From Rhizobium etli 8C-3 (GTDB taxonomy: Bacteria > Pseudomonadota > Alphaproteobacteria > Rhizobiales > Rhizobiaceae): DNA of 64,000 bases. The stretch's first letter is position 1. Each line of letters begins with the position of its first letter. Below the pieces are notes generated by a model. That model worked only from the letters and a program-made list of their open reading frames with translations, searched no databases and was not told the origin of the DNA. The position numbers were made by a program, and so were the translations under genes. Location of the stretch: NCBI RefSeq assembly GCF_001908375.1, contig NZ_CP017241.1:1925001-1989000 (forward strand). The letters are read 5' to 3'. Positions 40,232-60,543 of this stretch are shown in pieces.

Positions 40232-40250
40232 TCAATGTGGAAAACATAAT

Positions 40251-40295
40251 ATGCAGGTAAATACCTGCATATAAAGAGCAGTTATTTACCTGCAT
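40251..40295. promoter_or_regulatory. Palindromic operator upstream of arsR
   Basis: ATGCAGGTAAATACCTGCAT (40251-40270) has perfect eight-base arms around AAAT. The half TATTTACCTGCAT recurs at 40283-40295. Their place just before the arsR start suggests ArsR binding and autoregulation. Confidence 0.65.
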
Positions 40296-40547
40296 GTCAA
40301 GTGCCGACGGTCGAAGGTGATCGAGCCGCGAGCGGGCAGGGCAACACCTGAAGGCTTGAGTGCATTATGGGGCGCAGATCTGCGGTGGTTACTGGTGTGA
40401 GTTCACGGCATCACCACGATCTTCGAACATGGAGTAATCGCGGCGCGACCGTTTCTGGCTTTTGGGCTGGTGAGGGTGGTTGCCCCCGATAGGATGGAAA
40501 AACGGGCTCTCGATTGGAACCGGGCCTAACATCGGATGGAGGCAACC

Positions 40548-41579: not shown

Positions 41580-41906
41580 GCGACGCTCAGCCTTCGTCCC
41601 TCAGCGCGCCATCTAACTTTGGGTGCTGAGCGTCCCTGCTGCGGACGTGGGTTGGATCATTCCGCTATCGCTGGCTGCAGCTCGTTGAGACTGCGTTTCG
41701 AACATCAGGAAGATCCCACCTGCGAAGACCATTGTGCGGCGACATTTGTCGACCGCGGAGACAACCCTGCTCCCAGCACTGGACAGCTCTGAAGGACCCG
41801 GCCGGTGAGGGCAGATCCATTCAATCAGTTCAGCCGTGTTGCCTCTCTCGCAAGCCGGCAAGGGCCATCGAATGCTCAAACCAGCTTGACGGATGGAATG
41901 CGATTA
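41580..41906 (+). ncRNA. Candidate bridge-RNA region of IS110 no. 1
   Basis: About 325 gene-free bases follow the transposase stop. Two bases after the stop, GACGCTCAGC (41582-41591) can pair perfectly with GCTGAGCGTC (41625-41634). In IS110-family elements the non-coding end encodes the bridge RNA; placement after the gene fits the IS1111 branch. RNA ends and guide loops cannot be set by eye. Confidence 0.4.
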
Positions 41907-42366
41907 GACAACCAGCGATGCTCGGAGCCGTCGATCTGCACCAGCTCACCATAAGCCTCGCGCCGCAATCGTGGCGATGGAAGCTGCGACGCTGCTGGCG
42001 CGATCGCCAGATACCGGCCGCCGTCATCCTATGCCGCAGCGTCTCGCGCGACACACACAATCCATCGCGTCCGGCAAGCTTCTCGGCCGCCAGCGTCGGC
42101 CCGAAATCCCAATAGCGCTCGCGAATGAGCGTCAAAGCATAATCGCGAAGCCCATCGTTGATCCGGTTGTTCGACGGCCGGCCGATCGCCTTGTGCCGGA
42201 TCGACGCCGCGCCACCCGTTCTGATCCGCTCCAGCAGCCGGCGCACCTGGCGCTCGCTCAGCGCCAGAACATGCGCCGCCGACATCAACGTCATTCGACC
42301 GTCGATGACTTTCGACAAAACCTCGATCCGCTGCAGGTCACGCTCGCTCATCGCAATCAGTCCCAT
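41907..42366 (-). pseudogene. ISNCY-A transposase, N-terminal fragment
   Basis: From ATG 42366 the first about 130 residues are the same as the complete ISNCY-A transposase at 55580-56953 (SERDLQRIEVLSKVIDGRM; RQVRRLLERIR). After residue about 130 (QQRRSFH) the frame shifts and the ISNCY reading continues in another frame up to 41909, where the IS110 element begins. So it is both frameshifted and truncated. Its own upstream DNA includes the ISNCY right end to 42448. Confidence 0.85.
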
Positions 42367-42441
42367 CGGCAATCTCCCACGTCATCAAACGCGGGGAGTG
42401 TGACATTCTTACTTTGTAGGAACAGGACACTTCAACTTTGG

Positions 42442-42455
42442 GGCTACACAACTGT
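42442..42455. repeat. Abutting ISNCY right and left ends
   Basis: The right end of the ISNCY-A fragment (minus strand TGTAGCC, 42448-42442) is followed after four bases by TGTCAAAGC (from 42453), the left end of the cargo-carrying element. The same head-to-tail arrangement occurs at 57035/57040. Both ends are flanked inward by repeated motifs of the kind AGTTAGAAACGCGACA or AAGTAAGAATGTCAC. Confidence 0.65.
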
Positions 42456-42519
42456 CAAAGCTGATTACAGGCGCGACGTTGTCAGCCAGTTAGAAACGCG
42501 ACACTGGCTCCGTCGATCA

Positions 42520-42567
42520 GCCCCCGATCCGACCGGCTGGGCCGGGTTGAAAGGGAGGAGCGGGGGC
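42520..42567 (+). repeat. GC-rich stem-loop inside ISNCY left end (locus 1)
   Basis: GCCCCCG (42520-42526) pairs with CGGGGGC (42561-42567). The same sub-terminal position in the other two ISNCY left ends also carries a GC-rich inverted repeat. Confidence 0.55.
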
Positions 42568-42646
42568 GGGTGATGACGCTCCCCTTCGGCCTTAGCTTTC
42601 TCAGTAGCAATTATTCCGTTGCCGGTTGATACTCGCTTGCACCTGC

Positions 42647-43414
42647 ATGGGGCGGGGTAGGGATCAAAGCGGCACGATGCTTCCGAAAATCCACCTGCAA
42701 GGTGACGTCGATGTTGCCGCGCTGTCACCGCTTCTTCGCGGCATGCTTCTTTCGGTTGCCTATGCTGACGGTGAGGGTGGCATAGGATTGACGGCGACCG
42801 GCGCCATGAACCGCAAGTTCGTGCATTGGGCCGCTGTGCACTTCCTCTGGCCAGGGTTCACAGCCGAAGACCTCTACAGCATGAATAAGGTGCTCAATGA
42901 AAGCGACATGCCGCCGCTTTGGGTCGTGCGCGACATGGCCCGTCATCTGAAGCTTCTTCGGCGACGAAAGGATGTGCTGCTGCCAACCAGACGCGGCAGG
43001 GAGTTTCTGGCAAAACCGCAAGCCTTCTTCGATCTGATCGCCACGGATTATCTCTATTCGTGTGTCCACGCCACCGAGCGGGAAGAGGAGGTCCGAGCGC
43101 GGTTACGCTGGTGGCGCATGTTGCTCAATCTTCTCAATATCAAGGGCAGAGAAGGTTGCACGCCAATGGACGTTATGAAGATCCTCTATCCAGGCTTGGC
43201 GCCTCTGTCGGACACCGAAATGACCATAGAAGCCTGGGAGTTGAAATCCGGTCTTCAGTATGGCGTCTTCCAACGCTTATGCTGGCTCGGCTTGCTCTAT
43301 GAGGCACGAGAGGGGCTCACTCTTCTCCAGGACGGATCCTTCCACAAGACGCCGCTTTGGCCAGCTTGCCTGCAGTTGGAATCTGATACGCAGAGCGACA
43401 TCGGCGTGCATTGA
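42647..43414 (+). CDS. Unknown protein carried by ISNCY element, copy 1
   Basis: 255 residues from ATG 42647 (an alternative ATG at 42677 starts LPKIHLQGDVD). Near-identical to the protein at 54806-55573. No signal peptide or membrane segment; rich in Trp, Arg and Leu with predicted helices. Conserved-looking blocks include GGIGLTATGAMNRKFVHW, MNKVLNESDMPPLWVVRD, LPTRRGREFLAKP and RARLRWWRMLLNLLNI. The spacing resembles winged-helix segments but I recognise no named family. It lies between an ISNCY left end and the 3' end of a convergent transposase gene, which makes it a passenger gene rather than a host gene. Confidence 0.7.
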   Translation: MGRGRDQSGTMLPKIHLQGDVDVAALSPLLRGMLLSVAYADGEGGIGLTATGAMNRKFVHWAAVHFLWPGFTAEDLYSMNKVLNESDMPPLWVVRDMARHLKLLRRRKDVLLPTRRGREFLAKPQAFFDLIATDYLYSCVHATEREEEVRARLRWWRMLLNLLNIKGREGCTPMDVMKILYPGLAPLSDTEMTIEAWELKSGLQYGVFQRLCWLGLLYEAREGLTLLQDGSFHKTPLWPACLQLESDTQSDIGVH

Positions 43415-43419
43415 TGATC

Positions 43420-43735
43420 TTTATTCCGCCGCTGGCTGCCTCATTTACGCTTTCTCCGCTGCCCAATCACCGCCGGACCATTCATGAAATCCGTCCTCCG
43501 CCGGGCTTGCGACCCCGCTTCAGGCGCCGGTTGCTCGGCTGCGATCGCTTCTTCGAAACGGGCCTGCTGGACCATCCCGGTCATAGGTCTGCAACAGCCG
43601 ATGGACCTGACTTCGACTGAGGTCGAGCAGTTCGGCTGCCTCGACGACGCTCAGGCGTTCGTCACGAATCTTCTGGATGACTTCGAGGCGATGCAATTCT
43701 TTCTGCAACATGGTGATCATAAAGACATGAGATGA
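43420..43735 (-). pseudogene. Chimeric ISNCY transposase remnant (B-type N-terminus joined to A-type C-terminus)
   Basis: The segment 43527-43720 (minus) encodes KELHRLEVIQKI and DLSRSQVHRLLQTYDRDG, the N-terminal helix-turn-helix of the ISNCY-B type (compare 58500-58620). Directly after it, 43420-43515 matches the last codons of ISNCY-A (compare 55583-55680). The middle, including the DDE core, is absent. The join suggests recombination between the two transposase genes or a deletion across adjacent elements. Confidence 0.75.
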
Positions 43736-43802
43736 CCTCGACTACGATGGCGTCACGAAACGAAAGTGGTGAATCTGTCCGACTTTTTAGAACATACGGT
43801 GA

Positions 43803-44220
43803 TCACGCTACGAGGATAGATGTTTCTCGCCGCAGTGGCCCGAGATCGGCGCTGTCCGTCGGGGTCCAGATGTAATCGCCGGTGAGACTGATATGCTGCC
43901 ACCCGAGCGGGGTGATGTGTTTGATCACGGCGGGCGGCGTGGCGATGCCTTCCCGGCTGAGCTCGGCGAAGGCCGGATCGAGATAGAGAGTGTTCCAATA
44001 GACGATGGCGTTAATGAGCAGGTTCAGCCGGATGCCCGGTAGAACTGGCTCTCGAAGGTCCTGTCGCGCAGTTCTCCGAGGCGGTTGAAGAACAGTGCTC
44101 TCGCAAGGGTGTTCTGAGCCTCGCTCTTGTTGAGACCGGCGGTCGCGTTCCTGCGAATTTCGGGGTTCTGCCACCACTGGGGCCTGATCGGCCCGAAGCT
44201 GATGAGGTGGAACGGCCCTT
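43803..44220 (-). pseudogene. Tn3-family transposase, C-terminal fragment with frameshift
   Basis: The 3' part encodes NLLINAIVYWNTLYLDPAF and ITPLGWQHISLTGDYIW, the classic Tn3 TnpA C-terminus, ending near 43803. Upstream, in another frame, [35 protein letters not shown] and [17 protein letters not shown] continue the family; one missing base near 44034 separates the frames. Most of the about 980-residue protein is gone, so this is a dead remnant. Confidence 0.85.
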
Positions 44221-44284
44221 CTCAAACGGCATCAAGTGCCTAACGTGGTCGTGTTGAAACGCCACAAAGAGGAAGGACCGCTCC

Positions 44285-44360
44285 ATGAAGAAGATGACCA
44301 CAGTCGGGCTCGATCTGGCCAAATCCGTTTTTCAGGTTCATGGCATAGCCGAGGAAGGAG
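44285..44360 (+). pseudogene. IS110-like transposase, first codons only
   Basis: MKKMTTVGLDLAKSVFQVHG is the typical N-terminus of another IS110-group transposase; similarity stops after about 25 residues and the open frame that continues to 44479 is not IS110-like. A scar of an old insertion. Confidence 0.7.
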
Positions 44361-44511
44361 TCGTGATCGTAGCTGTCAAGATCGATCTGCCCGGCTGTAG
44401 CGAGCGTTTCGCTGGGCGTGACTGGCCAGTCGTAGAGCAGGAACTCTGTCGCGCTCCTACCCTCTCTCTTGTTTGGTAATGCCCAAGCCGCCGGCAACGT
44501 GAAATCGGCGC

Positions 44512-44658
44512 TTAGCCCGCCGGCATTGCTAATAATGCGGAAGCAATCGCCAGAAGGCTCGCGGCTAGCGCAGCAAGACTGGGGATCACGACGGCAACTC
44601 CGGAAAGCCACGCCAGCCCTGCCACCCAATCGAACGGTCTGTCAGCAGACATTGTCAT
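44512..44658 (-). CDS. Small membrane protein at the end of the cbb3 operon
   Basis: A 48-codon gene starting [18 protein letters not shown] and ending LLAIASALLAMPAG. Almost all of it after residue 10 is hydrophobic, enough for one or two passes. Its ATG overlaps the ccoS stop as ATGA, matching the other coupled joints in this operon, and the ccoS end GAAGGGAACC provides a ribosome-site-like stretch. No known family recognised; it may be an assembly or stability factor of the oxidase by position alone. Confidence 0.6.
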   Translation of the reverse strand: MTMSADRPFDWVAGLAWLSGVAVVIPSLAALAASLLAIASALLAMPAG

Positions 44659-44909
44659 GTCAGGTTCCCTTCTTCCTGGCCCTTGGACAAACGATGTCGA
44701 TCAGACGTATGTTCCATGTCGTGGTGGTCCTCATCGCCTTTCCACGTCTTGTCGTGAAGGGGAGCGTCCGCGGCGTTGGTTGGCAGCACCCTTTCGGCAG
44801 CCCCGTCGAGATCGTCGTACTGGCCGGTACGCATCGACCATAGGAACGCCATGAGGCCCACGCTACCCATTCCCAAGGCGATCGGCACAAGCCAAACGAC
44901 ATTTTTCAT
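44655..44909 (-). CDS. ccoS: cbb3-type cytochrome oxidase assembly protein CcoS/FixS
   Basis: 84 residues with one membrane segment at 4-24 ([19 protein letters not shown]), the conserved [16 protein letters not shown] after it, and a charged, His-rich tail. CcoS is needed for heme b and copper loading of CcoN. The start overlaps the ccoI stop by four bases and its stop overlaps the next small gene, so it is translationally coupled on both sides. Confidence 0.92.
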
Positions 44910-47164
44910 TGTGCACCCTCTTTGAGATAGAGCCTGCGTACAGTCTTAGAACGTGGGGACGAGGCCGTGGCGCGCGAAAGGCGCAAGGCATTGCCGACAA
45001 CGAGGATCGAAGACGTTGACATCGCAATCGCCGCCATGAGAGGCGTGACATGGCCTGTGACAGCGACAGGGACAATCAGAACATTGTAGGCGACGGCAAG
45101 AGCGAAGTTCTGTCGCGCCAGCCCCGCGGCGGCTCGCGCGACGCTCATCGCTTGCGGGACGGCCTCCAGGCTCTTGCCCAGGAACACGAGATCGGCAGCG
45201 TTCCTTCCGACGTCCGCGGCCGACGAAGGTGCCATCGAGACATGCGCAGCGGCAAGCGCCGGGGCATCGTTCAGCCCGTCGCCTACCATCAGGACGTGGC
45301 GTCCAGCCGCTGCCAACTCCGTCAGACGCTCGACCTTGTCTTCGGGAACGACGCCGTGGCGGTGTTCGGTGATGTTCAGCGCGGCGGCGACCTTGCCGAC
45401 CTCCGTGAGACGGTCGCCGGAAAGAACCTCGGTTGCCAGTCCGTGGGCTGCCAGCGTTTGCACTGCGGCCTTGGCACCGGGCCTCACCTCGTCGTCGATT
45501 GCGAACCAGCCGGCCGGCTGTCCGTCGCGCGAAAGCCACACGCCTGCTTGCGAGTTATCGAACGCGCCGCAGGAGACCCACTCCTTCCGTCCCAGCCTAT
45601 AGATCGTTCCGTCGATGCGGCCTTCGATTCCGTAGCCTGGAATCTCCCGAAAATCCTCGACTGCAACTTCGGCAGGCTGCAGCGCGGCGATAGCACGCGC
45701 TGCCGGATGCTTTGAAAGACCGGCCAGAGCTGTCGCGGCGGCCAGGTTCCGCGGCGCGACGGTGTGCTCGATCACGCGGACGACGCCGGTCGTGAGTGTC
45801 CCCGTCTTGTCGAAGACCACCGTGTCGGCCTCGGCGAGCCGCTCCAGCGCACTGCCGTCCTTGATGGTGATGCCGAGGTCGAACAACCGGCGAGCGGCCA
45901 TGACCTGGACCATCGGCACTGCCAGGCCCAGAGCACAGGGGCAGGTGATGATGAGGACCGAAATCGCCACTGTGATCGACCGATGCCAGTCGCCCGTCTG
46001 CAGCATCCAGGCGGCAAAGGCCGCCAGCGCGAGCAGGTGAACGACAGGGGAATAAAGTGCTGCCGCGCGATCGGCGATGCGGCGGTAGCGGGCACGGCCG
46101 TCCTCCACCGCCTCCATCAGCCTCACCATATCGGCAAGGAAGGAATCCTCTGCCCTCCTATCGGCCCGGACCGCCAGTGCGCCGTCGACGCTCATCGTCC
46201 CCGAAAGAACCATGCTTCCGGGGTGCGCACTTTCAGGCGCGGATTCGCCACTTACCACCGAAACGTCCAGATTCCCCGCACCCGAAACGACCGTTCCGTC
46301 GACGGGCATACGGTCGCCCGGCCCCACAAAGACGATGTCCCCCGGTTCGATCTTCGTCAATTCGCGGAACTCGCGGCTTCCGTCTGCTCCAATCACCATC
46401 GCGCCCCTCGGCAGCAAGCGGGCAAGTCCGGTGACGGCAGTCCGCGCCTTCTGCCGCATCGCATGATCCAGCGTGCGTCCTGCCAGGAGAAAGAAGATCA
46501 ACGACGTGACCGCGTCGAAATAGGCGTGCGGTCCTCTGGCAAAGGTGTCGTAGAGACTCAGTCCCAGCGCGAGCAGGATTCCCACGGAGATCGGAAGATC
46601 CATGCTGGCCGTCCGCTTCCTCACCGAATTCCATGCCGAAACGAAGAACACCCGTCCGGAATAAGCGACGGCGGGCACGGCGAGCAGCGCGGAGATCAGG
46701 TGGAAGGCGTTCCGCGTCCCGGCGTCGGCGCCCGACCAGATGGATACCGACAGGAGCATGATGTTCATGGCGGCGAAGCCCGCGACCGCCGTCGCCCGCA
46801 GGAGCCGGGACATTTCTGGATCGCGTCCACCATCGTCCGTCTCTGTAAGGCAGGCGTCGTATCCAAGGTCCCGCAATGCCTCGATCATCGGAGGCACATG
46901 GCTCCCGCTGCTCCACCTGACGGCGACGCGCCGGGAGGTCAGGTTCAATCGCGCCGCAATGACTCCGTCGAGGCGCTGTAGGGCGCCTTCGATCGCAGCA
47001 ATGCAGGCACCGCAACGCGCCTGCGGCACGGAGAGGTCCGTCTGGAACATACCATCGCCGAGGTCACGGCTCGCGAGCACGATCTCTCGTGCGGAGATCT
47101 CTCGGGCTTCCGGCTGCGGCGCCAGGAGCAACCCGGCTTCGGTTCCCATAGCACAGCAGCTCAT
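44906..47164 (-). CDS. ccoI: Copper-transporting P1B-type ATPase CcoI/FixI
   Basis: 752 residues; delivers copper for cbb3 oxidase maturation. N-terminal heavy-metal domain with C51-x2-C54 ([12 protein letters not shown]), membrane [11 protein letters not shown] (the CPC metal site), phosphorylation loop [17 protein letters not shown] (HP motif) and [10 protein letters not shown] hinge. The N-terminus has an additional CC pair (MSCCAMG). Start ATG 47164 overlaps the stop of the DUF2189 gene (ATGA) and has GAGGAAC upstream. A longer frame has no family similarity. Confidence 0.95.
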
Positions 47165-47988
47165 TGTCGCGGTTCCTCGGGACGAGCCATTGCCCTGTAG
47201 GCATGCCAAGTGGCGTGGCCCAGCAACGGAAAGATGACGATCATTCCAACGAGGCCCGTAGCAACGCAGACTCCAAAGAGCACGAGCAGCATCGCCCCCC
47301 AGGCGACCATCGGCGTGAGGTTGTTCCACACCAGCTTCATGCTCGAGCCCATGGCGGTCAGCGCATCGACACGCTGATCAAGCAGCATCGGCACCGAAAA
47401 GACGCTGACAGCAAAGGCAAAGGCCGCAAACAGGCCGCCAATTGCCGTCCCGACGACCAGCATCGTCCAGCCGTAGGCCGTACCGAAGAGCATGCCGGCG
47501 ATGTGATCAAGGCCGGGGAATGCTGCCACCCCGAAAAACAGGGCGTAGAGGAGCACGGCGGCCCGCATCCACAACAGCACCAGCATAAAGAGCAGCAGAC
47601 CGGCGAAGGTCACCTGCGCGCCGGCACGGGGACGCACGAAGAGCATGGAGCCAAAGCCGACCTGTGTGCCTTCTTCGATCGACCGGCTCTTCTCGTAGAG
47701 GCCGATCGCCAGGAACGGCGCAACGATCATGAAGGCGGCCAGGGCCGGAAACAGGATATAGTCGAGCCCGAAGGCGACGAGCATCCAGACGAACGCGACG
47801 GATAGAAGGAAGACGCCGATTCCGTATGCCATGCTCGAAGCCGGCCGCGTCCAGAAGTCCCGCCAGCCCGCTGAGAGCCAGCGGAACCCCTCAAAGACCG
47901 GCAGCCCTCGCTGAAGGCGCGGGTCCCGCGTTTCTCCGATGCCCGACGTCTCGCTAAGCAGCCAGTATGACTTGTCGGTCTCGCCCAT
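47161..47988 (-). CDS. DUF2189 membrane protein in the cbb3 operon
   Basis: A 275-residue polytopic membrane protein with about six hydrophobic segments, of the DUF2189 family; function unproven. Typical start of the domain: [19 protein letters not shown], then [15 protein letters not shown]. It occupies the place where ccoG and ccoH normally stand, between ccoP and ccoI. Its TGA overlaps the ccoI start. Whether it takes part in oxidase biogenesis is only suggested by the coupling. Confidence 0.85.
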
Positions 47989-48000
47989 CTCTTGTCTCCC

Positions 48001-48192
48001 TCAGCATTCCGGCTTGGCGGCGCGATAGCCATGACCGTCGCCCAACGAATTCGAGTGCTCGACGCAGTCCGGTTGCGACTGGACGGCGACGTAAACCAGG
48101 TGCACGTTCGCCCCGGCCACCAAAAGCAATCCCGCAGGGATCAGCGCCCAGAGGAGCCACTTGGTTCGGGATCTCTTCGCGCGCCGGGTCAT
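48001..48192 (-). CDS. Small membrane protein between ccoP and DUF2189 gene
   Basis: 63 residues from ATG 48192, which overlaps the ccoP stop (ATGA). One membrane segment (about 12-34, KWLLWALIPAGLLLVAGANV) follows a basic N-terminus (TRRAKRSR), and the outer tail carries two cysteines (QSQPDCVEHS and a final KPEC). A DUF-like 'FixH-position' protein by location but without FixH sequence. The two cysteines could bind metal or form a disulfide. Confidence 0.7.
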   Translation of the reverse strand: MTRRAKRSRTKWLLWALIPAGLLLVAGANVHLVYVAVQSQPDCVEHSNSLGDGHGYRAAKPEC

Positions 48193-49070
48193 GGCTGTTG
48201 CGTCCCGAGGTCGTGGACGTAGAGCGCGAGCGTCCGGATCTCGGCCGTCGTCAGCCTCTCGTCCCAGGTCGGCATATGGCCCTGGCGTCCGCCGTGCACG
48301 GAGGCGATGATCGTGTCCAGGTCGCCGCCGTAGATCCAGGAGGAGTCGGTGAGGTTCGGAGCGCCGACATCGCTTTTTCCCTTGGCGTCTTCGCCATGGC
48401 AGGCGGCGCAGGTGGTGACGAACACTTCGCGCCCTGCCTCCAAGCGATCGACGTTTTCCGGCGTCGAGTAGTCCGAGTGGGTCAGCGAATAGACGTAGGC
48501 GGCGACGCTCCGGACCTGCTCGCGGTCGAGCATCTGATCCCGCCCGAAGGCCGGCATCTGCCCGATCCGGCTTTCGGGGTGGCTTGTGTTGATGCCGACG
48601 CGCATCGTCTGCTCGATAAGCTGTGGACCTCCGCCCCATAGCCAGTCGTCATCGGTGAGGTCGGGGTAGTTCGCCCGACCCTTTCCGTCCCTGCCGTGGC
48701 AGGCGGCGCAATTGTCGCCAAAGAGCTGCCGTCCGGTACGGCGCACGGTCTGCATCAGTGCCTCGTCGGAGAGAATGGTGTCGTAGGGCTCTGTCGCAAT
48801 TCGGCTCATCCAGCCGGAACGGCCGCGCTCGGCCTCGACGACCTGAGCCTCGACCGTCGTCTTTTGGTCGATCCCGAAGAGCCCCTTGGTGTAGGTCGTT
48901 CCGAGCGGCCAGGCCGGCACGAAAAACCACCAGGCAATTGCCCAGATGTGGGTCACGATCAGGAATATGAGGACGCCGCGCGGCACGGGCGTGTCCAGCT
49001 CCTTGATGCCGTTCCACTCGTGGCCGGTCGTCTCGCGGCCGCTGACAGGATCGCGTTCACTCACTTCCAT
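48189..49070 (-). CDS. ccoP: cbb3 oxidase diheme cytochrome c subunit CcoP/FixP
   Basis: 293 residues. N-terminal cytosolic piece (HEWNGIKELDTPVPR, conserved in CcoP), one membrane anchor at about 31-55, then two cytochrome c domains with CAACH at 121-125 and 221-225, exactly 100 residues apart; methionine ligands fit MPAFG and MPTWDER. It passes electrons from cytochrome bc1 toward CcoO. The start overlaps the ccoQ end by ten bases. Confidence 0.95.
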   Translation of the reverse strand: MEVSERDPVSGRETTGHEWNGIKELDTPVPRGVLIFLIVTHIWAIAWWFFVPAWPLGTTYTKGLFGIDQKTTVEAQVVEAERGRSGWMSRIATEPYDTILSDEALMQTVRRTGRQLFGDNCAACHGRDGKGRANYPDLTDDDWLWGGGPQLIEQTMRVGINTSHPESRIGQMPAFGRDQMLDREQVRSVAAYVYSLTHSDYSTPENVDRLEAGREVFVTTCAACHGEDAKGKSDVGAPNLTDSSWIYGGDLDTIIASVHGGRQGHMPTWDERLTTAEIRTLALYVHDLGTQQP

Positions 49071-49231
49071 GGCGTGTCGTCCCGGTCGAGGATGCTGTGC
49101 TTGGCCCGGTCGAAGCGCGTCCGGTTCGACGGCCAGAAGGTGTAGACGAGCACCCCGAAGGCAAGGGCGATCAGATAGAACAGACCCCAGCTCTTGGAGA
49201 ATGCGACGATCGCGTCGTGGTCCAGGTCCAT
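49061..49231 (-). CDS. ccoQ: cbb3 oxidase subunit CcoQ/FixQ
   Basis: 56 residues: MDLDHDAIVAFSKSWGLFY, a single membrane helix, and WPSNRTRFDRAKHSIL, the usual CcoQ layout of a short helix followed by a basic tail. CcoQ stabilises the complex. Start ATG 49231 follows GGCGGAGGATTG; its end overlaps the ccoP start. Confidence 0.92.
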   Translation of the reverse strand: MDLDHDAIVAFSKSWGLFYLIALAFGVLVYTFWPSNRTRFDRAKHSILDRDDTPWK

Positions 49232-49248
49232 GTGACAATCCTCCGCCT

Positions 49249-50001
49249 TCAGTTTTCGGGATCCGGCTTCTTCTCGGGAGCTGCGGTATGTTCGTATGCT
49301 GCTCCCGTTAGCCTGCCGAGAACCTGGAGATAAGCGACGAGCGCGTCTATCTCGGTGACATGGGTGGTAACGCCGTCGAATGCGCTCACCTGCGTTTTCT
49401 CGCCGTAACGCTCGGTAACACCGGCGGCAAAGTCCGTGTCGGGAGTTGCCTGGCCGTAGGCGTCCCGCGCGGCGTTTTCCACCATCTCATCAGTATACGG
49501 AACGCCAAGGGCGCGTTGCGCCGCAAGGTGTTGCGGCAGGTCCTCCATCTTCAGACGGGTCCGCGCCAGCCAGCGATAGGCGGGCATGTTCGATTCCGGA
49601 ACGACATCCCGCGGGTTGGTGAGATGATCGACATGCCAGAGGTCGGAATACTTGCCGCCGATGCGCGCAAGATCCGGTCCTGTGCGCTTGGAACCCCAGA
49701 GCATCGGACGGTCGTACCGGGACTCGACGGCCAGCGAGTAAGGACCGTAACGTTCCACTTCGTCACGGAGCGTGCGGATCATCTGGCTGTGGCAAGCATA
49801 GCATCCCTCGCGGATGTAGATGTTGCGTCCGGCGAGCTCCAGCGGCGTGTACATCCGCATGTCCGGGGCCTCCTCGACCGTCTTGTCGATGGTGAAGAGA
49901 GGAGCGATCTCGACGATGCCGCCGACGCTTGCAGCCGCAATGATTGCGATCACGAAGCCGATCGCGGAACGCTCAAGCTTGCGATGGAAGAGTTCGGGCA
50001 T
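49249..50001 (-). CDS. ccoO: cbb3 oxidase monoheme cytochrome c subunit CcoO/FixO
   Basis: 250 residues, anchored by one helix (about 13-33), with the heme site CYACH at 67-71, and the family blocks GPYSLAVESRYDRPMLWGSKRTGPDLARIG and DPRDVVPESNMP-like segment (NPRDVVPESNMPAYRWL). Start ATG 50001 lies four bases after the ccoN stop; the longer open frame overlaps ccoN. Confidence 0.95.
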   Translation of the reverse strand: MPELFHRKLERSAIGFVIAIIAAASVGGIVEIAPLFTIDKTVEEAPDMRMYTPLELAGRNIYIREGCYACHSQMIRTLRDEVERYGPYSLAVESRYDRPMLWGSKRTGPDLARIGGKYSDLWHVDHLTNPRDVVPESNMPAYRWLARTRLKMEDLPQHLAAQRALGVPYTDEMVENAARDAYGQATPDTDFAAGVTERYGEKTQVSAFDGVTTHVTEIDALVAYLQVLGRLTGAAYEHTAAPEKKPDPEN

Positions 50002-50005
50002 ATCG

Positions 50006-51646
50006 TCATTCCCCCGGCATGACGGCGGGGACGACGGGCATATCGCCTTCACGCGCCACAGCAAGCGGCGCGGACCGAACTGTCATCCAGATGTTCCAGC
50101 ACCCGACGACGGCGCCCAGCAGAAAGAGCAGGCCCCCGAAAGCGCGGGCGATGTAGTATGGATACATCGCCACCAGAGAGTCGACAAACGAATAGGCAAG
50201 CGTGCCTTCCCCGGTATAGGTCCGCCACATCAGGCCCTGGATGAGGCCAGAGTTCCACATCGCGAAGACGTAGATCACAGTTCCGGCGATCGCCACCCAG
50301 AAATGCACCTCGACGAGAGCCGCAGAGTACATGCGCTCGCGCTTCCAGAGGCTGGGCACCAGTGTGTAGAGCGAGCCGAAGGTAATCAGCGCGACCCATC
50401 CGAGCGCTCCGGCGTGGACGTGACCGACCGTCCAGTCCGTATAGTGCGACAGCGAGTTCACCGGCCTGATGGCAAGAAACGATCCCTCGAAAGTCGAAAT
50501 CCCGTAAAAGACCGCGGCTGCCATCATAAAGCGCAACGTCGCGTCATCCCGAACCCGGTGCCACGCGCCGTTGAGCGTTAGCAGCGCGTTGCCGGCCGAC
50601 GCCCAGGAGGGCACCAGCAGCATCACCGAGAAGGTCATGCCGAGCGTCTGGACCCAGTGGGGAAGCGCGGTGTAGTGCAGGTGGTGGGAACCGGCCCACA
50701 TGTAAAAGAACGTGATGCCCCAGAAGCTCAGGATCGACAGCCGGTAGGAAAAGATCGGCCGCTGCGCCCGGACCGGCAGGTAGTAGTAGAGCATTCCTAG
50801 GAAACCGGCCGTCAGGAAGAAGGCGACCGCGTTGTGCCCGTACCACCACTGCACCATCGCGTCCTGGACGCCCGGCCATATCGTGTAGCTTTTGGCGTGC
50901 CCCCAGGAAACCGGAAGGGCGAGATTGTTGACGATGTGGAGGATTGCGACAACCAGGATGAACGCCATGAAGTACCAGTTGGCGACATAGATGTGCGGCT
51001 CCTTCCGGCGGGCTATCGTTCTGATGTAAAGGACGAAATAGGTGACCCAGACGATGACAAGCCAAATGTCGGCGTACCATTCGGCCTCCGCGTATTCCTT
51101 GGACTGGGTGATCCCCATCATGTAGCCCGACACGGCCAGCACGCAGAACAGATTGTAGCCGAAGAGCACGAACCAGGGACTGAGTTGGCCCGCCAGGCGC
51201 GTCCGCGAGGTGCGCTGGACGACGTGGAAGGAGGTCGCGATCAGCGCGTTGCCGCCGAAGCCGAAGATGACGCCTGTGGTGTGCGTGGGCCTCAGCCGCC
51301 CGAAACTGGACCAGCCGGCGTCGAATGCGAGATCCGGCCAGGCGAGCTGCGCCGCCACCCAAACGCCCATGAACATCCCGAACACAGCCCAGGCCATGGA
51401 AAGCACGATGCCCACCTTGATGGGATCGTCGTAATACGATGCCTCCCGGTCCTCCACTGCTTCAGGCTCGAAGAGCGAGGACATGACGAGGTAGAGGAGG
51501 CCTCCGGCGAACAGCATGACGATCACGCCGTGGACCCCGAGGGCGTCAGACCGGCCGGCCGCGGCCATCGTTGCGCCGGCTATCGCGACAGCGATCGCGA
51601 TCGCGAAGGCACCCTGGCGTTCCGAGGTCGTAAGCCGCGTGATCAT
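50006..51646 (-). CDS. ccoN: cbb3 oxidase catalytic subunit I CcoN/FixN
   Basis: 546 residues, about twelve membrane helices. Heme and copper histidines lie in RPTHTTGVIFGFGGNA, WWYGHNAVAFFLT, GSHHLHYTALPHW and WTVGHVHAGALGWV. Reduces oxygen with high affinity at low oxygen tension. Start ATG 51646 has GGAGGA at good spacing; the additional upstream frame has no CcoN character. First gene of the operon. Unlike typical fixN, no TTGAT-N4-ATCAA box was found in the about 250 bases before it, and an IS30 element begins at 51894-52979. Confidence 0.96.
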   Translation of the reverse strand: MITRLTTSERQGAFAIAIAVAIAGATMAAAGRSDALGVHGVIVMLFAGGLLYLVMSSLFEPEAVEDREASYYDDPIKVGIVLSMAWAVFGMFMGVWVAAQLAWPDLAFDAGWSSFGRLRPTHTTGVIFGFGGNALIATSFHVVQRTSRTRLAGQLSPWFVLFGYNLFCVLAVSGYMMGITQSKEYAEAEWYADIWLVIVWVTYFVLYIRTIARRKEPHIYVANWYFMAFILVVAILHIVNNLALPVSWGHAKSYTIWPGVQDAMVQWWYGHNAVAFFLTAGFLGMLYYYLPVRAQRPIFSYRLSILSFWGITFFYMWAGSHHLHYTALPHWVQTLGMTFSVMLLVPSWASAGNALLTLNGAWHRVRDDATLRFMMAAAVFYGISTFEGSFLAIRPVNSLSHYTDWTVGHVHAGALGWVALITFGSLYTLVPSLWKRERMYSAALVEVHFWVAIAGTVIYVFAMWNSGLIQGLMWRTYTGEGTLAYSFVDSLVAMYPYYIARAFGGLLFLLGAVVGCWNIWMTVRSAPLAVAREGDMPVVPAVMPGE

Positions 51647-51893
51647 TCTCTGTCCTCCCACGCCGCGGCAATTCATTACACTGTCCCCGCAACTGCCGCG
51701 GACATCAAGCAGATCCACAGAAAGTGCCTGTGCGTAAGATATTGGCAAGGTACATCCGTCGAAGACGTATAGCAACGCTTTGGGGTGTTCTTGGCAATCC
51801 CCTGTCAATCCATGAGGTGAAAGGATTGCGCGTTTACCTTGCATTGCCCGATTGGTGCGTTTAGGGATTCGGGCCACCGTGTGAGTTCAAGCC

Positions 51894-52979
51894 GAATTGC
51901 GACCTGCAGCTGTGACGCTAACCGACACGTCGCACTTGCGCGAGCAGTTTCTTGCGGAAGACTTCCGCGGGCGTTCGGTAGCCCAGGCACTTCCGCGGCG
52001 TCGAGTTGAGCCGGTCGCAGATGTCTCTCAGCTCGCCGTCGCTGATCGACAGGGGATCCACCTCTCGCGAAAGCCATTTGCGAACCCGGCCATTGGTGTT
52101 CTCGACCGTGCCTTTCTGCCAGGGCGACTGTGGGTCGCAGAACCATGTCTGCGTTCCGATGCCGGCTTGCAGATAGGGCCATTCGCTGAACTCAGTGCCC
52201 CGGTCGAAGGTGATCGAGCGTCGAGCAGCGTGGGGCAGGGGTTGGAGCACCTCAATCAGCCCGTCCATGATCGGTTTCGATTGCCGGTCGTTGTTGCGCA
52301 GGAAGACCGCAAAGCGGCTGACCCGCTCGACCAGTGAGGTCACGTTGGCCTTGCCGAACTTCTTGCGAAACTGAATGAGATCGCACTCCCAATGCCCGAA
52401 CTGCTTGCGTTCGGCGACCGTGTCAGGACGGTGAAGAATGTTGAGTTCCGGGCTGAAGCGGCGACCGTGACGGCGTCGGGCATGCCGCGGTCTCCGTCTC
52501 GCGCGACGCTTCGGCAGGTGCCGCCACAGCTTGATGGCCTGACCGTCTGCGGAATAGGCGAACTTATAGATCGTCTCGTAACTGACGCAAATCGGATGGC
52601 GCTCCAGCCGCATGCGACCGGCGATCTGCTGTGGCGACCAGCCATGCATGATCCGCTCGATCACCGATTGGCGCACATGGACGAAGCGGGCGAGCTTGCG
52701 CAGCCTGGCTCTGCGTTCACGTGCCATCTCGTTGGCGGTCACGCAATAGTAGCCGCTCAGATCCGGCATTTGCGGATCCTCAAACGCATTCCGCTTGAGC
52801 TCGCGGAAAACGTCGAGCGATGCCGTCCAAGCTTCTCGGCAATGACCGTGGCGCTCAGGCCGGCCGCTCGCCAGCGAGCGATCTTACGACGTTCATCCAT
52901 ATCGATCTGGGAGTAGGTGCGTGTCATGAGCATTCCTTGCGAGTGATAACCCATTGGTATCTATCGCAAGTCGCACTTC
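51894..52979 (-). mobile_element. IS30-family element
   Basis: Terminal inverted repeats are GAATTGCGACCTGC (51894-51907) and, on the other strand, GAAGTGCGACTTGC (52979-52966), matching at twelve of fourteen positions. The element holds one broken transposase gene and lies directly upstream of ccoN, with an ISNCY element 28 bases beyond its other end. Confidence 0.7.
51918..52927 (-). pseudogene. IS30 family transposase, frameshifted
   Basis: From ATG 52927 the helix-turn-helix part reads TRTYSQIDMDERRKIARWR and AEKLGRHRST; one base is missing near 52835, after which the second frame gives FRELKRNAFEDPQMPDLSG and runs through the DDE core (GHWECDLIQF; TFDRGTEFSEW; NGRVRKWL) to 51918. Restoring one base would give about 336 residues, the IS30 norm. 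The element may therefore be inactive unless frames are bridged. Confidence 0.85.
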
Positions 52980-53120
52980 ATCCTTGAACCCACCCCGCTA
53001 CACACACTGTGGCAGCCAAGTTGAAATGTCCGTTCTGGCGCAAAGTAGAAATGTCACTTTGGGCGCGTCGCCAGCCAGTTAGAAATGCGACACGCGACAT
53101 GTGCACTTGCACTGTGGCAA

Positions 53121-53168
53121 GCCCCCGACCGGACCGGCCGGGCCGGGTTGCAAGGGAAGGGAGGGGGC
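53121..53168 (+). repeat. GC-rich stem-loop inside ISNCY-A left end
   Basis: GCCCCC (53121-53126) pairs with GGGGGC (53163-53168), with further GC-rich bases inside; followed by CTTCGGCTTTAG, as in locus 1. Confidence 0.5.
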
Positions 53169-53274
53169 GGGTGAGGCACACCCCTTCGGCTTTAGATCCC
53201 ATGAGGAGTGAACAGCGGCCGACGCTCTGGCAGAGTGAGGCTGCATCAAAGCACTCGCTCAGAAGGAACAGGTT

Positions 53275-54447
53275 ATGGAAGCCACATCCGTTCAATCAAA
53301 GACGCCAACCGCTGTCCGCACTGATCTTGGCGCAATTTTTGTGTCGTTGGAACTTAGCCGATCGACCTGGTTGATCACTTCGTTGTCGCCGGGCAACGGC
53401 GAAAAGATGTCGAAGCATGTGGTGGACGGCGGCAATATAGCCGAGTTGCTCGCTCGGTTTGAGCAGCTCCAACTGGAGGCGCGGCTACGAACAGGGAAGT
53501 CGTTTCCCATCGTGACGATCCAAGAGGCTGGATTGGATGGCTTTTGGATCCATCGGGTTCTGGAAGCGAACGGGATTGAGAGTTACGTAGTTGATGCAGC
53601 TTCTATCGCGACCTCTCGTCGACGTCGGCGCGTTAAGACCGACAAGATTGATGGAGAGGCATTGACGCGGACACTGCTGGCATTCAAGCGTGGCGAGCCA
53701 CGTGTGTGCGCAATGGTCAGAGCGCCAGCTCCAGAGGACGAAGACCGGCGTCGAATCTGCCGGGAACGCAAAGTGTTGATTGCGGAGCGAGTAAGGCATG
53801 TTAATCGCGTCAAGGGTCTACTTTTCGCCCAGGGCGTCAGCGGCTATCAACCGCTTCGAAAAGATCGCCGCATACGGCTTGAGGAGCTTTGCACCGGAGA
53901 CGGCCGTGGCTTGCCGAAGTATCTCAAGGCTCAAATAAATCGAGAACTCGATCGTCTTGAGTTGCTGCTTGAGCAAATCGTCGAGGTGGAGAGCGAGCGT
54001 AATTCCCTGCTTTCCGTACATGAGCCGCTAGCGTCTGAGGCACCGGCGCCGGCAATGTTGCTTACTTTAAAAGGTGTCGGCGCTGAGTTTGCCGCCGTTC
54101 TTTGGACCGAAGCGCTGTGCCGACATTTTGATAATCGGCGGCAGATTGCCGCCTATGCAGGTTTGACACCGACCCCATGGATGAGCGGGACGATCGACCA
54201 CGAACAAGGAGTCTCAAAAGCAGGGAATCCCCGGTTGCGCACCACGATGATTCAATTGTCCTGGCTATGGCTACGCAATCAGCCAGCGTCAGCGCTCAGT
54301 CGTTGGTTTGTGGATCGGGTCCAATCGAATGGTGGTCGTTTAAAGAAAGCCGCGATAGTTGCCCTGGCGCGCAAGCTCCTTATCGCGCTGTGGAAGTTTG
54401 TCACTGCGGGTGTTGTCATCGAAGGGGCTGTTATGAAGACCGCCTGA
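53275..54447 (+). CDS. IS110 family transposase
   Basis: 390 residues from ATG 53275, with AAGGAA upstream. RuvC-like N-terminal domain with FVSLELSRSTWLITSLSPG and QEAGLDGFWIHRVL, RRVKTDKIDGEALTRTLL (the DEDD aspartates), a coiled linker, and the Transposase_20 domain with LTLKGVGAEFAAVLWTEAL and YAGLTPTPWMSGTIDHEQG. Intact. Different subgroup from no. 1 and no. 3 by sequence. Confidence 0.92.
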   Translation: MEATSVQSKTPTAVRTDLGAIFVSLELSRSTWLITSLSPGNGEKMSKHVVDGGNIAELLARFEQLQLEARLRTGKSFPIVTIQEAGLDGFWIHRVLEANGIESYVVDAASIATSRRRRRVKTDKIDGEALTRTLLAFKRGEPRVCAMVRAPAPEDEDRRRICRERKVLIAERVRHVNRVKGLLFAQGVSGYQPLRKDRRIRLEELCTGDGRGLPKYLKAQINRELDRLELLLEQIVEVESERNSLLSVHEPLASEAPAPAMLLTLKGVGAEFAAVLWTEALCRHFDNRRQIAAYAGLTPTPWMSGTIDHEQGVSKAGNPRLRTTMIQLSWLWLRNQPASALSRWFVDRVQSNGGRLKKAAIVALARKLLIALWKFVTAGVVIEGAVMKTA

Positions 54448-54754
54448 CGACCATAAAATGGCCGAACACACAAATCTTCCAGGACTGATCAATCCTGGCG
54501 GATCCAGGTGAACGAACCGCCGCTAAGTCGGGCTTCAAATGCCGCGCTTTAGATTGGTCCCGTTCTCCTGAGCCTTGCTGCTACGCAAGCGGGATAGTGG
54601 TGCTGCCGGACAAAACGGCGACCGTATGTGAGTTTGAACCGGCGACGGAAACGCGCCGCGTCATGCGAGGTGGCTCAGCCATGGATTCGATACAAATCGA
54701 AAGGAGCACGCTATGAAACAGTGATTGATCTTGACGGCAAAATCCTCATGTAAG
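54448..54754 (+). ncRNA. Candidate bridge-RNA region of IS110 no. 2
   Basis: 307 non-coding bases inside the right end of the element. A hairpin CCAGGA-n8-TCCTGG (54479-54498) starts 32 bases after the stop. Position fits IS1111-type bridge RNAs, which are made downstream of the transposase gene. Exact RNA not determinable here. Confidence 0.4.
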
Positions 54755-54805
54755 CTTTCTCACTGGCAATTGTTCTTTTGCCGCTCGATACTCTCTGTCA
54801 TATGC

Positions 54806-55573
54806 ATGGCGCAGGGTAGGGATCAAAGCCGCACGATGCTTCCGGAAATCAAACTGCAGAGTGACGTCGATGTCGCCGCGCTGTCACCACTTCTGCGCGG
54901 CATGCTTCTTTCGGTTGCCTATGCTGACGGTGAGGGTGGCATAGGATTGACAGCAACCGGCGCCATGAACCGCAAGTTCGTGCATTGGGCGGCGGTGCAC
55001 TTCCTCTGGCCAGGATTCACAGCCGAAGATCTCTACAGCATGAACAAGGTACTCAATGAAAGCGACATGCCACCGCTTTGGGTCGTGCGCGACATGATCC
55101 GTCATCTGAAGCTTCTTCGCAAAAACAAAGATGTGCTGCTGCCAACCAGACGCGGCCGAGAGTTTTTGGCAAAACCGCAAGCCTTCTTCGATCTGATCGC
55201 CACGGATTATCTCTATTCGTATGTCCACGACACCGAACGGGAACAGGAGGTGCGGGCGCGGTTACGCTGGTGGCGCATGTTGCTCAATCTTCTCAATATC
55301 AAGGCCAGAGAAGGGTGCAGGCCAATGGACGTTGTGAAGATCCTCTATCCAGACCTGGCGCCTCTGTCGGACACCGAAATGACCCTGGAAGCCTGGAAGT
55401 TGAGATCCGATCTCCAATATGGCGTCTTTCGGCGCTTATGCTGGCTCGGCTTGCTCTATGAAGCACGAGAGGGGCTCACGCTCCTTCAGGATGGAACCTT
55501 CCACAAGACGCCACTTTGGCCCGCTTGCCTGCAGTTGGAGTCGGATGCGCAAAGTGACATCGGCGTGCATTGA
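54806..55573 (+). CDS. Unknown protein carried by ISNCY-A, copy 2
   Basis: 255 residues, about 93-95% identical by eye to the copy at 42647-43414 and of equal length. Same blocks: GGIGLTATGAMNRKFVHW, NESDMPPLWVVRDM, LLPTRRGREFLAKP, LRWWRMLLNLLNIKARE. Most differences are conservative (RRR to KNK after LKLL). Stop TGA is 7 bases from the convergent transposase end, well inside the ISNCY ends, so it is a passenger gene. The IS110 insertion 50 bases upstream may have separated it from its promoter. No named family recognised. Confidence 0.7.
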   Translation: MAQGRDQSRTMLPEIKLQSDVDVAALSPLLRGMLLSVAYADGEGGIGLTATGAMNRKFVHWAAVHFLWPGFTAEDLYSMNKVLNESDMPPLWVVRDMIRHLKLLRKNKDVLLPTRRGREFLAKPQAFFDLIATDYLYSYVHDTEREQEVRARLRWWRMLLNLLNIKAREGCRPMDVVKILYPDLAPLSDTEMTLEAWKLRSDLQYGVFRRLCWLGLLYEAREGLTLLQDGTFHKTPLWPACLQLESDAQSDIGVH

Positions 55574-55579
55574 CGATCT

Positions 55580-56953
55580 TTATTCCGCAGCTGGCTGCCT
55601 CAATAACGCTTTCTCTCGCCGCGCAATCACCGCCGGATCGTTCATGAAATCCGTCTGCTTGCCCGGCTTGCGGCCCCGCGGTGTGTAACCGTTCTTCTCG
55701 CTGTTGGTCTTCACCTTCGGCGGCAATCGCTGATCCTGCTGTTCCTTGATGTAGGCCAGCACGTCGGAAAGCCGCTTGTTCTCGGTGATCGCCGCGTGCG
55801 TCACCCGCTGGTCCTTGTCGAACACCCGATACGGCAGCGAATGGCCTTTCCAGCGCACGTCCAACCGGCCATCGGCAAAGGCATAGGTCTCGACATAGCG
55901 GCCGACCAGCCCACGCGTGATATCGGTCTCTTCCAGCATGATCCGCTGGCGCTCGAACGAGAACGTCAGCTGCGCCCCGACATACCGCTGCTCACGCTTG
56001 CACAGAATGTCCTTGAGCCGGTCCGACGCCAGGTTCACCGGCCGATGCAGATTGTCAGATCGGGCAGGGGCAACTGCAAACCGCGCGTTGTAGCCTTCCA
56101 TAAAATTGGGCAGAAAGGCATTGCCCGCCTGCATGTCGCAGATCCCTGCCAATCGCATATCCTTGATCAATCGGTCCTGCAATGTCTGGTTCATGCGCTC
56201 GACGCGGCCCTTGGCCTGGCTTGAATTTGCGCAAAGAATCTCGATGTTTAGCTCGCAAAGCGCCCGGCCGAACTGGGTCATGCCCTGGCCGCCCTTGGCG
56301 TCCTTCTTCGCCACCCGGAACACCGAATGCTTGTCGGAATAAAACGCCACCGGCGCCCCGTGATCCTGCAGATAGAGTTCCAGCGCCGCGAAATAGCTGA
56401 AGGCGCTTTCCGAGCCCACAAAGCGCAACTGCATCAGCTTGCCCGTCGCATCGTCGATGAACACCAAAAGCGTACATGGTGGTCCACGATCTTCGAACCA
56501 GCGATGCTCGGAGCCGTCGATCTGCGCCAGCTCACCATAAGCCTCGCGCCGCAATCGTGGCTGATGGAAGCTGCGACGCTGCTGGCGCGATCGCCAGATA
56601 CCGGCCGCCGTCATCCTATGCCGCAGCGTCTCGCGCGACACACACAATCCATCGCGTCCGGCAAGCTTCTCGGCCGCCAGCGTCGGCCCGAAATCCCAAT
56701 AGCGCTCGCGAATGAGCGTCAAAGCATAATCGCGAAGCCCATCGTTGATCCGGTTGTTCGACGGCCGGCCGATCGCCTTGTGCCGGATCGACGCCGCGCC
56801 ACCCGTTCTGATCCGCTCCAGCAGCCGGCGCACCTGGCGCTCGCTCAGCGCCAGAACATGCGCCGCCGACATCAACGTCATTCGACCGTCGATGACTTTC
56901 GACAAAACCTCGATCCGCTGCAGGTCACGCTCGCTCATCGCAATCAGTCCCAT
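55580..56953 (-). CDS. ISNCY (IS1202-like) family transposase, type A
   Basis: 457 residues from ATG 56953 with GGGAG upstream. N-terminal helix-turn-helix pair (SAAHVLALSERQVRRLLERI; GRPSNNRINDGLRDYALTLI), rve-type DDE core with LAQIDGSEHRWFEDRG, LLVFIDDATGKLMQLRF, FYSDKHSVF and AKGRVERMNQTLQDRL, and a basic C-terminus with RGRKPGKQTDFMNDPA. Complete. A truncated near-identical copy lies at 41907-42366. Confidence 0.92.
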   Translation of the reverse strand: MGLIAMSERDLQRIEVLSKVIDGRMTLMSAAHVLALSERQVRRLLERIRTGGAASIRHKAIGRPSNNRINDGLRDYALTLIRERYWDFGPTLAAEKLAGRDGLCVSRETLRHRMTAAGIWRSRQQRRSFHQPRLRREAYGELAQIDGSEHRWFEDRGPPCTLLVFIDDATGKLMQLRFVGSESAFSYFAALELYLQDHGAPVAFYSDKHSVFRVAKKDAKGGQGMTQFGRALCELNIEILCANSSQAKGRVERMNQTLQDRLIKDMRLAGICDMQAGNAFLPNFMEGYNARFAVAPARSDNLHRPVNLASDRLKDILCKREQRYVGAQLTFSFERQRIMLEETDITRGLVGRYVETYAFADGRLDVRWKGHSLPYRVFDKDQRVTHAAITENKRLSDVLAYIKEQQDQRLPPKVKTNSEKNGYTPRGRKPGKQTDFMNDPAVIARREKALLRQPAAE

Positions 56954-57151
56954 CGGCAATCTCCCACGTCATCAAACGCGGGGAGTGTGACATTCTTACT
57001 TTGCAGAAACAGGACACTTTAACTTTGCGGCTACAAACATGTCACAGCTATTTAAAGATGAGACAAAGTAATCAATTTAGAAACGCGACATGATTCTATT
57101 CGTTATTGCTGATTTTGCAAGATTCTATATTTTCCGATACACAGACGGTAA

Positions 57152-57200
57152 GCCGCCGCCCGGGTGGAGCTGGTCGGGGTTGCGCAGCCCGGGCGGCGGC
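57152..57200 (+). repeat. Perfect 13-pair stem-loop in ISNCY-B left end
   Basis: GCCGCCGCCCGGG (57152-57164) pairs perfectly with CCCGGGCGGCGGC (57188-57200) around 23 bases. It lies after the transposase stop on the minus strand and in the same sub-terminal place as stem-loops in the other ISNCY left ends. Confidence 0.75.
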
Positions 57201-57245
57201 GGATGGCTCCAGCTGAAAAAGTAAACTTTAGCTTTGACACCCCGA

Positions 57246-58637: not shown

Positions 58638-58743
58638 GACGACTCCGAACGCTCATGGTCCACGTCGCCAATCTTCCTTCCAAACGTTGACGCTTGACCA
58701 GCATCCCAAGAGGCGACCACTGTCGCATCTCTCTTATGTTCGT

Positions 58744-60309: not shown

Positions 60310-60543
60310 AACACTGTCACATAAGATAGATTATGGAACTACCGGAGGCCACTAATCCGGATCAGCTCAGTCTGGAAAGCGGCCGGCCCTACTAGGTCTT
60401 TTTGGCTAGTTGCCTTGGCTGTTGTGTGTGACACTTTAAATGGAACAAGAAACTTTCGAGACGCTGCTCTGCGTTGCCTCGTGCGTCCATGGTAGATTGC
60501 TCGCTCGGAGCAATACGTCGGCACGGCAAGGAGAAGAAGACAA
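60310..60543. other. Intergenic region after the IS nest
   Basis: 234 bases between the ISNCY-B right end and the methyltransferase. No remnant of coding sequence recognised; the last 15 bases carry the GGAGAAGAAG ribosome site. Confidence 0.4.

Follow-up and report, generated by a model that had tools for sequence, protein, structure and literature searches.

We analysed 64,000 nucleotides of Rhizobium etli 8C-3 (contig NZ_CP017241.1, positions 1,925,001 to 1,989,000; hereafter the window, numbered from its first letter), in which one small gene occurs twice within a pile-up of insertion sequences (ISs) near a dif site. Judged by sequence, both genes ride as passengers in ISRel10-type elements of the IS1202 family (ISNCY). 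The likely start codon is the ATG at 42677 (copy 1) or 54836 (copy 2), which yields 245 amino acids (aa) and not the 255 of the initial annotation; we prefer it because relatives start alike (MLPEI...), the gene annotated by RefSeq in related plasmids measures 738 bp with its stop, and the earlier ATG is unconserved. The copies share 225 of 245 residues (92%; 232 of 255 on the longer reading; 91.3% of DNA positions), rather than the approximately 95% first estimated. Both genes are open, as that annotation had described, and each stop codon lies 6 bp from the 3' end of a convergent ISNCY transposase gene or, for copy 1, from the 3' end of its remnant (Table 1). A third copy lies on another replicon (C3:277503).

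For Agrobacterium C58, the chromosomal dif has been published as TAATCGCATAAGATATATTATGGAACTT (PMC2731167). The core CATAA-N6-TTATGGAAC occurs exactly once in each of the four contigs of R. etli 8C-3, and its reversed control not at all. The sole exact match in the 4,186,145-bp contig (position 1,985,320, 47% along it) falls inside the window, and thus the IS pile-up that holds both gene copies abuts the dif of this replicon. Neither copy is part of an intact element; both are rearranged, with flanks that do not match. The genes had been placed just inside an ISNCY left end, which is correct for copy 1 (42453) and for the end itself of copy 2 (53008), but here another element (53197-54750) sits between leader and gene; from the translation of its 390-aa open reading frame (ORF) we take it to be of IS110 type. 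Likewise, the description of nearby transposases as decayed fits the partner of copy 1 and not that of copy 2, which is open. The ISNCY_2 model NF033594 scores the two long transposases at 480 bits (55580-56959) and 440 bits (57246-58637) against a cut-off of 250. They represent types A and B, which are about 45% identical and were labelled throughout by best tblastn match.

Table 1. Features around the two passenger genes, in window coordinates.
Feature	Position	Strand	Evidence
Truncated upstream type A transposase and transposase-side end (GGGGCTACA, ends 42448), head-to-tail with copy 1	41830..42448	-	
Copy 1: type B cargo-side end of the IS, TGTCAAAGCTG, followed by the leader, which has a GC-rich hairpin (about 42519-42573)	42453..42676	+	
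Passenger gene, copy 1 (245 aa; predicted tandem winged helix)	42677..43414	+	open frame, conserved ATG
Decayed IS1202-family transposase remnant, N-terminal part type B, convergent with copy 1	43421..43735	-	
Copy 2: type A cargo-side end of the IS, TGTGGCAGCC, followed by the beginning of the leader, which has a hairpin (about 53120-53174)	53008..53196	+	
Insertion element of about 1.55 kb splitting the copy 2 leader; 390-aa ORF (53275-54447)	about 53197..54750	+	
Passenger gene, copy 2 (245 aa)	54836..55573	+	open frame, conserved ATG
Type A transposase of the IS1202 family (ISNCY), 459 aa, open, the partner to copy 2	55580..56959	-	NF033594, 480 bits
Transposase-side end of the copy 2 element, ...GCGGCTACA	57021..57035	.	
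Neighbouring type B element without a passenger: end TGTCACAGC, a hairpin (about 57151-57206) and a 463-aa transposase (57246-58637)	57040..58637	-	
dif site of the 4.19-Mb replicon, exact core match, 6 bp from an IS1202-type end remnant	60314..60341	+	

Relatives of the gene in other genomes are carried in the same way. Our census is non-exhaustive, being drawn from genome, plasmid and contig searches, and comprises 79 loci from one-per-species genomes (80 of 88 relatives were kept in that search). The match spans at least 235 aa at 67 of these, which, at 48% identity or more, are termed close loci. A transposase adjoins the gene at 65 of the 67. At 53, the end of a convergent IS1202-type transposase lies within 100 bp, and 33 of these transposases align over at least 440 aa, our measure of full length, with stops unchecked; an IS30 transposase is the neighbour at 12, and neither type is present at two (L062, which is broken, and L070, which is stand-alone). 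Both element ends could be located by script for 25 loci, delimiting elements of 2421-2556 bp, 18 of which have identical 5-bp flanks; not all 25 are independent (L019-L022, for example, share one target). These elements bear out the earlier proposal that the gene moves with its vehicle. The accompanying expectation that homologues always lie beside ISNCY transposases fails, both at the 12 close loci with an IS30 neighbour and at 19 loci of relatives below 45% identity, where no IS1202-type transposase was found.

The vehicles keep a fixed distance from dif. In a scan of gaps of 0-12 bp (L001-L107), the transposase-side end lies 5 bp from dif at 29 of 31 distinct sites and 6 bp from it at two, and the reversed dif pattern occurs at 0 of 79 loci. 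IS1202-type relatives were surveyed in 20 regions around ISNCY_2 transposases, in seven of which (L171-L176, L179) dif lies 5-7 bp from the transposase-side end by eye; the gap scan of this set (L170-L189) returned 5 bp four times, 6 bp twice, 7 bp once and 12 bp twice. Head-to-tail arrays of IS1202-family elements spaced by 5 bp were also observed (L032, L008, L055, L068, L036). One array element is flanked on both sides by the same 5 bp in L008, L032, L055 and L068, as expected from repeated insertion at one dif.

Leader and gene also occur together inside a second vehicle, a multicopy IS30-family element, at 11 of the 67 close loci, where the transposase is about 103 bp away; at the twelfth locus (L064), the IS30 neighbour appears to have inserted separately. 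The 11 include six Rhizobium altiplani contig ends, three left and three right flanks, which represent at least three insertions, not six. The element starts with TGTGACTTCTAATGTAAATGCAACA, and this left end and the right end GTTGCAGTTCGAGATAGAATGT.CC recur over copies, as repeats that are imperfect by eye. Its 331-aa transposase has an HTH_38 domain, an integrase-core match slightly under the cut-off and the RefSeq name IS30. Where detected, 23-29 codons from the 3' end of a type A transposase gene accompany the IS30-borne cassette. Among plasmids, 29 of 215 matching records contain at least 80% of this vehicle. The same slot holds a GNAT acetyltransferase (PF13302) in Roseibium (L220) and, beside broken transposase genes, a NIPSNAP protein (PF07978; L229) or an unannotated 260-aa protein (L230). 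Plasmid IS30 relatives at 57-66% identity (10 fetched, 9 annotated) have, by annotation, a slot without an obvious passenger.

The IS30 clade keeps its own distance from dif: all 45 distinct pairs of IS30 end and dif within 60 bp of each other (L004-L082, L190-L240) are separated by 13 (20 pairs), 14 (23) or 15 bp (2). Many of these insertions sit within the final bases of an IS1202-type end (GCTACA plus 5 bp), which alone yields about 13 bp. Other IS30 ends near dif have no IS1202 remnant, for example at Rhodobacterales sites with TTATGTTAA(A/T)T (L231, L233, L236, L240). This clade near dif (L190-L240) occurs in both Rhizobiales and Rhodobacterales. Of 30 loci of IS30 relatives, mostly at 50-55% identity, 16 have dif at a distance of 79-83 bp from the start of the transposase. 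Overall, dif-like sites are present in 21 of 30 and 7 of 10 IS30-relative loci, compared with 1 of 30 and 0 of 10 for the reversed pattern. Our searches of open-licence literature, with passages of PMC12907356, turned up no report of IS30 homing to dif, although absence there is not proof.

These distributions bear on whether the protein could be a transposition accessory factor that helps the transposase to choose dif, or that regulates transposition. Such a role would agree with the constant side and orientation of the gene relative to the transposase in three vehicles, with conservation about equal to that of the type A transposase, with a possible DNA-binding fold in the structure model and with dif lying downstream at 44 of 79 loci. 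However, five of the 20 surveyed IS1202 loci (L171-L174, L179) have a cargo-side end so close to the transposase stop, by eye, that no passenger is present, and dif still lies 5-6 bp from the other end; the genome that is the source of L174 (G073) has no match to the passenger gene at E <= 0.001. Similarly, in those of the 16 IS30-relative loci that were read by eye, the cargo-side end is near the stop, with no space for a passenger. Unrelated passengers are also found in the IS30 vehicle, and the vehicles belong to different IS families. As passenger-less members of both families occur at similar dif spacings, the gene is not needed for target choice, and we reject target selection as a necessary role, one of three roles first offered for the protein. 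An accessory function of any kind is unlikely.

A tree of the cassettes (47 rows; L226 was left out because of stops) requires seven changes of vehicle label, compared with a shuffled mean of 20.2, with one label in doubt (L040, IS30 in the tree and type B in the neighbour count). Its starred branches force single-label changes, at least three for type B, at least two for type A and at least two for IS30, and one starred clade contains both L007/L008 (type A) and L004/L083 (type B).

The leader that separates the cargo-side end from the gene contains a GC-rich hairpin with the conserved loop GCTGGNC.GGGTTG. This hairpin occurs three times in the window (Table 1), and is also found in type B elements that have no passenger, in the IS30 element with the GNAT gene (L220) and in L197 and L213. 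In a small, hand-trimmed alignment of 13 distinct sequences, 90.1% of 141 cells pair and 23 cells are altered on both sides, each value being equalled in 0 of 500 shuffles. The covariation score is 0.393, compared with 0.139 shuffled (0 of 500 as high) and with 0.083 or less in slid versions. Rfam returned no match within window positions 40000-59000. Shared whatever the passenger, the hairpin is possibly a new structured leader or insulator.

The protein had been assigned to no family, and our searches agree. The 31-member family has no Pfam match at E <= 0.1 and a single, chance-level PHROG match (E 0.043, in one of the 31 members), and the window copies have a single, chance-level NCBIfam match (copy 2, E 0.11). 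An anti-phage defence gene was considered and rejected, with no PADLOC family matched at E <= 0.01 by any of eight proteins (the passenger protein, five relatives and two other passengers). The structure model, with a predicted local distance difference test (pLDDT) score of 90.1, is predicted to resemble a tandem winged helix, with middling fold scores, in line with the winged-helix layout noted earlier from the translation. Foldseek against PDB and viral models found nothing at E <= 0.001, and a sequence search of solved structures gave no matches. Among the weaker structural alignments listed, MarR/PadR-type regulators account for many of the best chains, and the alignment to TFIIH p52 covers 137-142 residues; many unrelated winged-helix proteins tie in score, and thus we claim no specific functional relative.

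The ratio of non-synonymous to synonymous substitution rates (dN/dS) points to purifying selection over the whole family, as had been suspected from the open frames. Its median is 0.128 for the passenger gene (215 pairs), and 0.129 (44 pairs) and 0.076 (32 pairs) for the transposases, from which L058 was left out after failing the open-frame check; by this measure the passenger roughly equals the type A transposase in conservation. Between the two window copies the ratio is 0.16, but this divergence mostly predates the insertions and so is silent on selection in place. The same data make it very unlikely that the gene is a neutral hitchhiker, captured by chance and open only since its copies are young. 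Passengers are indeed interchangeable, and many elements have none, yet a neutral gene would be hard to reconcile with the low median ratio, with an ORF of at least 240 aa kept at 59 of 67 close loci (scripted check) and with approximately 50% protein identity maintained from rhizobia to Rhodobacterales.

An alternative role in Xer recombination or at terminus DNA next to the element, for example in restoring dimer resolution at an occupied dif, draws on the genomic setting. A same-orientation dif lies within 7 kb downstream of the gene at the 44 loci noted above, and two dif-homing vehicle families carry the gene. In R. etli 8C-3, three of four dif sites have an IS end next to them, and the third gene copy lies near one of these three: in addition to the site in the window, the C3 dif has an IS1202-type end at 5 bp and the C4 dif an IS30 end at 13 bp, and no clear IS end was seen near the C2 dif. 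Against this, no dif-like site was found at any of the 19 loci of stand-alone relatives, the GNAT and NIPSNAP proteins in the same slot have no obvious Xer role, and passenger-less elements persist at dif. We consider a function at the dif locus quite unlikely.

With the vehicles, their ends and duplications, the dif spacing, the cassette in several vehicles and purifying selection all legible in the DNA itself, we favour, with a probability of about 0.6, the reading that the gene is an exchangeable passenger of dif-adjacent mobile elements, kept under purifying selection and coding for a regulator that binds DNA. As the IS30 slot accepts enzymes as well, an exchangeable passenger is the simplest reading, and of the three roles first proposed it is cargo with a possible host benefit that remains the best. 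The cassette would consist of the gene and its structured leader, occupying a slot bounded on one side by the cargo-side end and on the other by the stop codon of the transposase gene. The transposase would place the element 5 bp (for the IS1202 family) or 13-15 bp (for the IS30 clade) away from the XerC arm of dif, and the cassette would pass between the two families by recombination, because both stack or nest at the same spot. Carriage in two kinds of dif-adjacent elements would then account for several copies in R. etli 8C-3 and for spread among rhizobia. We infer DNA binding, regulation and this route of exchange: the protein, a predicted tandem winged helix, is most likely a sequence-specific DNA-binding regulator, and would have its effect on host or replicon, or else on its own leader, and not on transposition.

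Several results are weaker or point the other way. A loose dif pattern is present in 6 of 20 loci of the IS1202 census compared with 4 of 20 for the reversed control, and is therefore uninformative there, so that only the position-specific reading counts in that set. Two hairpin statistics are weak, namely double-change pairs (5 of 11; 68 of 500 shuffles as high) and pair types (13; 35 of 500). Additionally, dif is absent from the 400 bp next to the start of the transposase at 12 of the 30 IS30-relative loci, some of which are broken or lie at contig ends.

More tentatively, and somewhat short of an even chance, dif sites of rhizobia and their relatives may be docking points of a loose, integron-like form of gene shuffling, in which IS1202 elements and the IS30 clade home at different fixed spacings, nest and swap leader-preceded cassettes, the 245-aa protein being the most widespread cassette seen.

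Other features of these loci are side observations. Between the two IS stacks near dif lie genes (44906-51877) that, from their translations, we take to be fixGHIS- and fixNOQP-like, and this block may have arrived or rearranged together with the IS arrays. The right-hand junction of the IS110-type element, before AGCTTTCTC in the passenger leader, is common to the window copy and to a RefSeq-named ISRel9 neighbour in L227; the same junction in two different vehicles suggests a site-specific target. Two longer stand-alone relatives from genomes of different families (L133:881-1750, L134:4846-5718) lie directly downstream of a gene that is presumably, from its translation, a recD2-like helicase gene, and translations near stand-alone relatives in L121, L133 and L138 presumably represent serine recombinase or DUF2924-type genes. 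No consistent partner emerges, and we therefore draw no function from these neighbourhoods.

Five results are new: IS1202-type elements 5 bp from sites that match the published rhizobial dif, together with an IS pile-up that holds both gene copies beside the sole exact dif match of its replicon; one leader-plus-gene cassette that also occurs in a multicopy IS30-family element, making a passenger gene common to different transposase families; an IS30 clade that keeps 13-15 bp from dif whether or not it carries the gene, which points to a second dif-homing IS family; other passengers in the slot of further IS30 copies; and a covarying hairpin before the slot. The extra ORF of a catalogued transporter IS thereby gains a family, a predicted fold and a history, and rhizobial targets formerly termed loosely dif-like match the published rhizobial dif. 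The fixed spacings of 5 bp and 13-15 bp make XerC-guided target choice testable in two independent transposase families, and a genome with one dif per replicon, such as that of R. etli 8C-3, is a natural experiment.

Among known systems, tandem winged-helix proteins (the N-terminal half of TFIIH p52, PadR/MarR regulators and the retron Ec86 effector domain) have no detectable sequence relationship to the passenger protein. The 331-aa transposase with its HTH_38 domain and RefSeq name resembles those of the IS30 family, from which the clade described here differs in lying 13-15 bp from dif and in close members that have a passenger slot and a structured leader. In the accessible part of PMC10132070, the ISAjo2/ISAba32 group (IS1202 family, dif hunters of Acinetobacter) has transposases of 441-457 aa, TGT/ACA ends and a position 5 bp from the XerC arm of dif. 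Our IS1202-type elements likewise have TGT...ACA ends and this spacing, but those of Acinetobacter are 1.5 kb, with a passenger unmentioned in that part of the source. The same portion catalogues ISRel10 of R. etli as a transporter IS with an extra ORF that has no Pfam match of known function, and describes tISRel10 as 2528 bp with a 5-bp duplication, ACACC, beside AAATAGCATAA..TTATGGAACTT, a site termed only loosely dif-like (PMC10132070). The features of an IS1202 transporter IS are all found in our set: an ISNCY_2 DDE transposase, TGT...ACA ends, a 5-bp duplication, dif spacing and an extra ORF inside the ends. L047 is also 2528 bp, with ACACC on both flanks and the same target AAATAGCATAATCAACGTTATGGAACTT, and L025 is 2530 bp; the match to ISRel10 thus rests on the length, target and duplication of L047, and not on the window copies. 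Our account differs from the published one in that the site matches the published Agrobacterium chromosomal dif, and in that the protein encoded by the extra ORF, undescribed in the accessible part of PMC10132070, belongs to a gene that can be traced into other vehicles.

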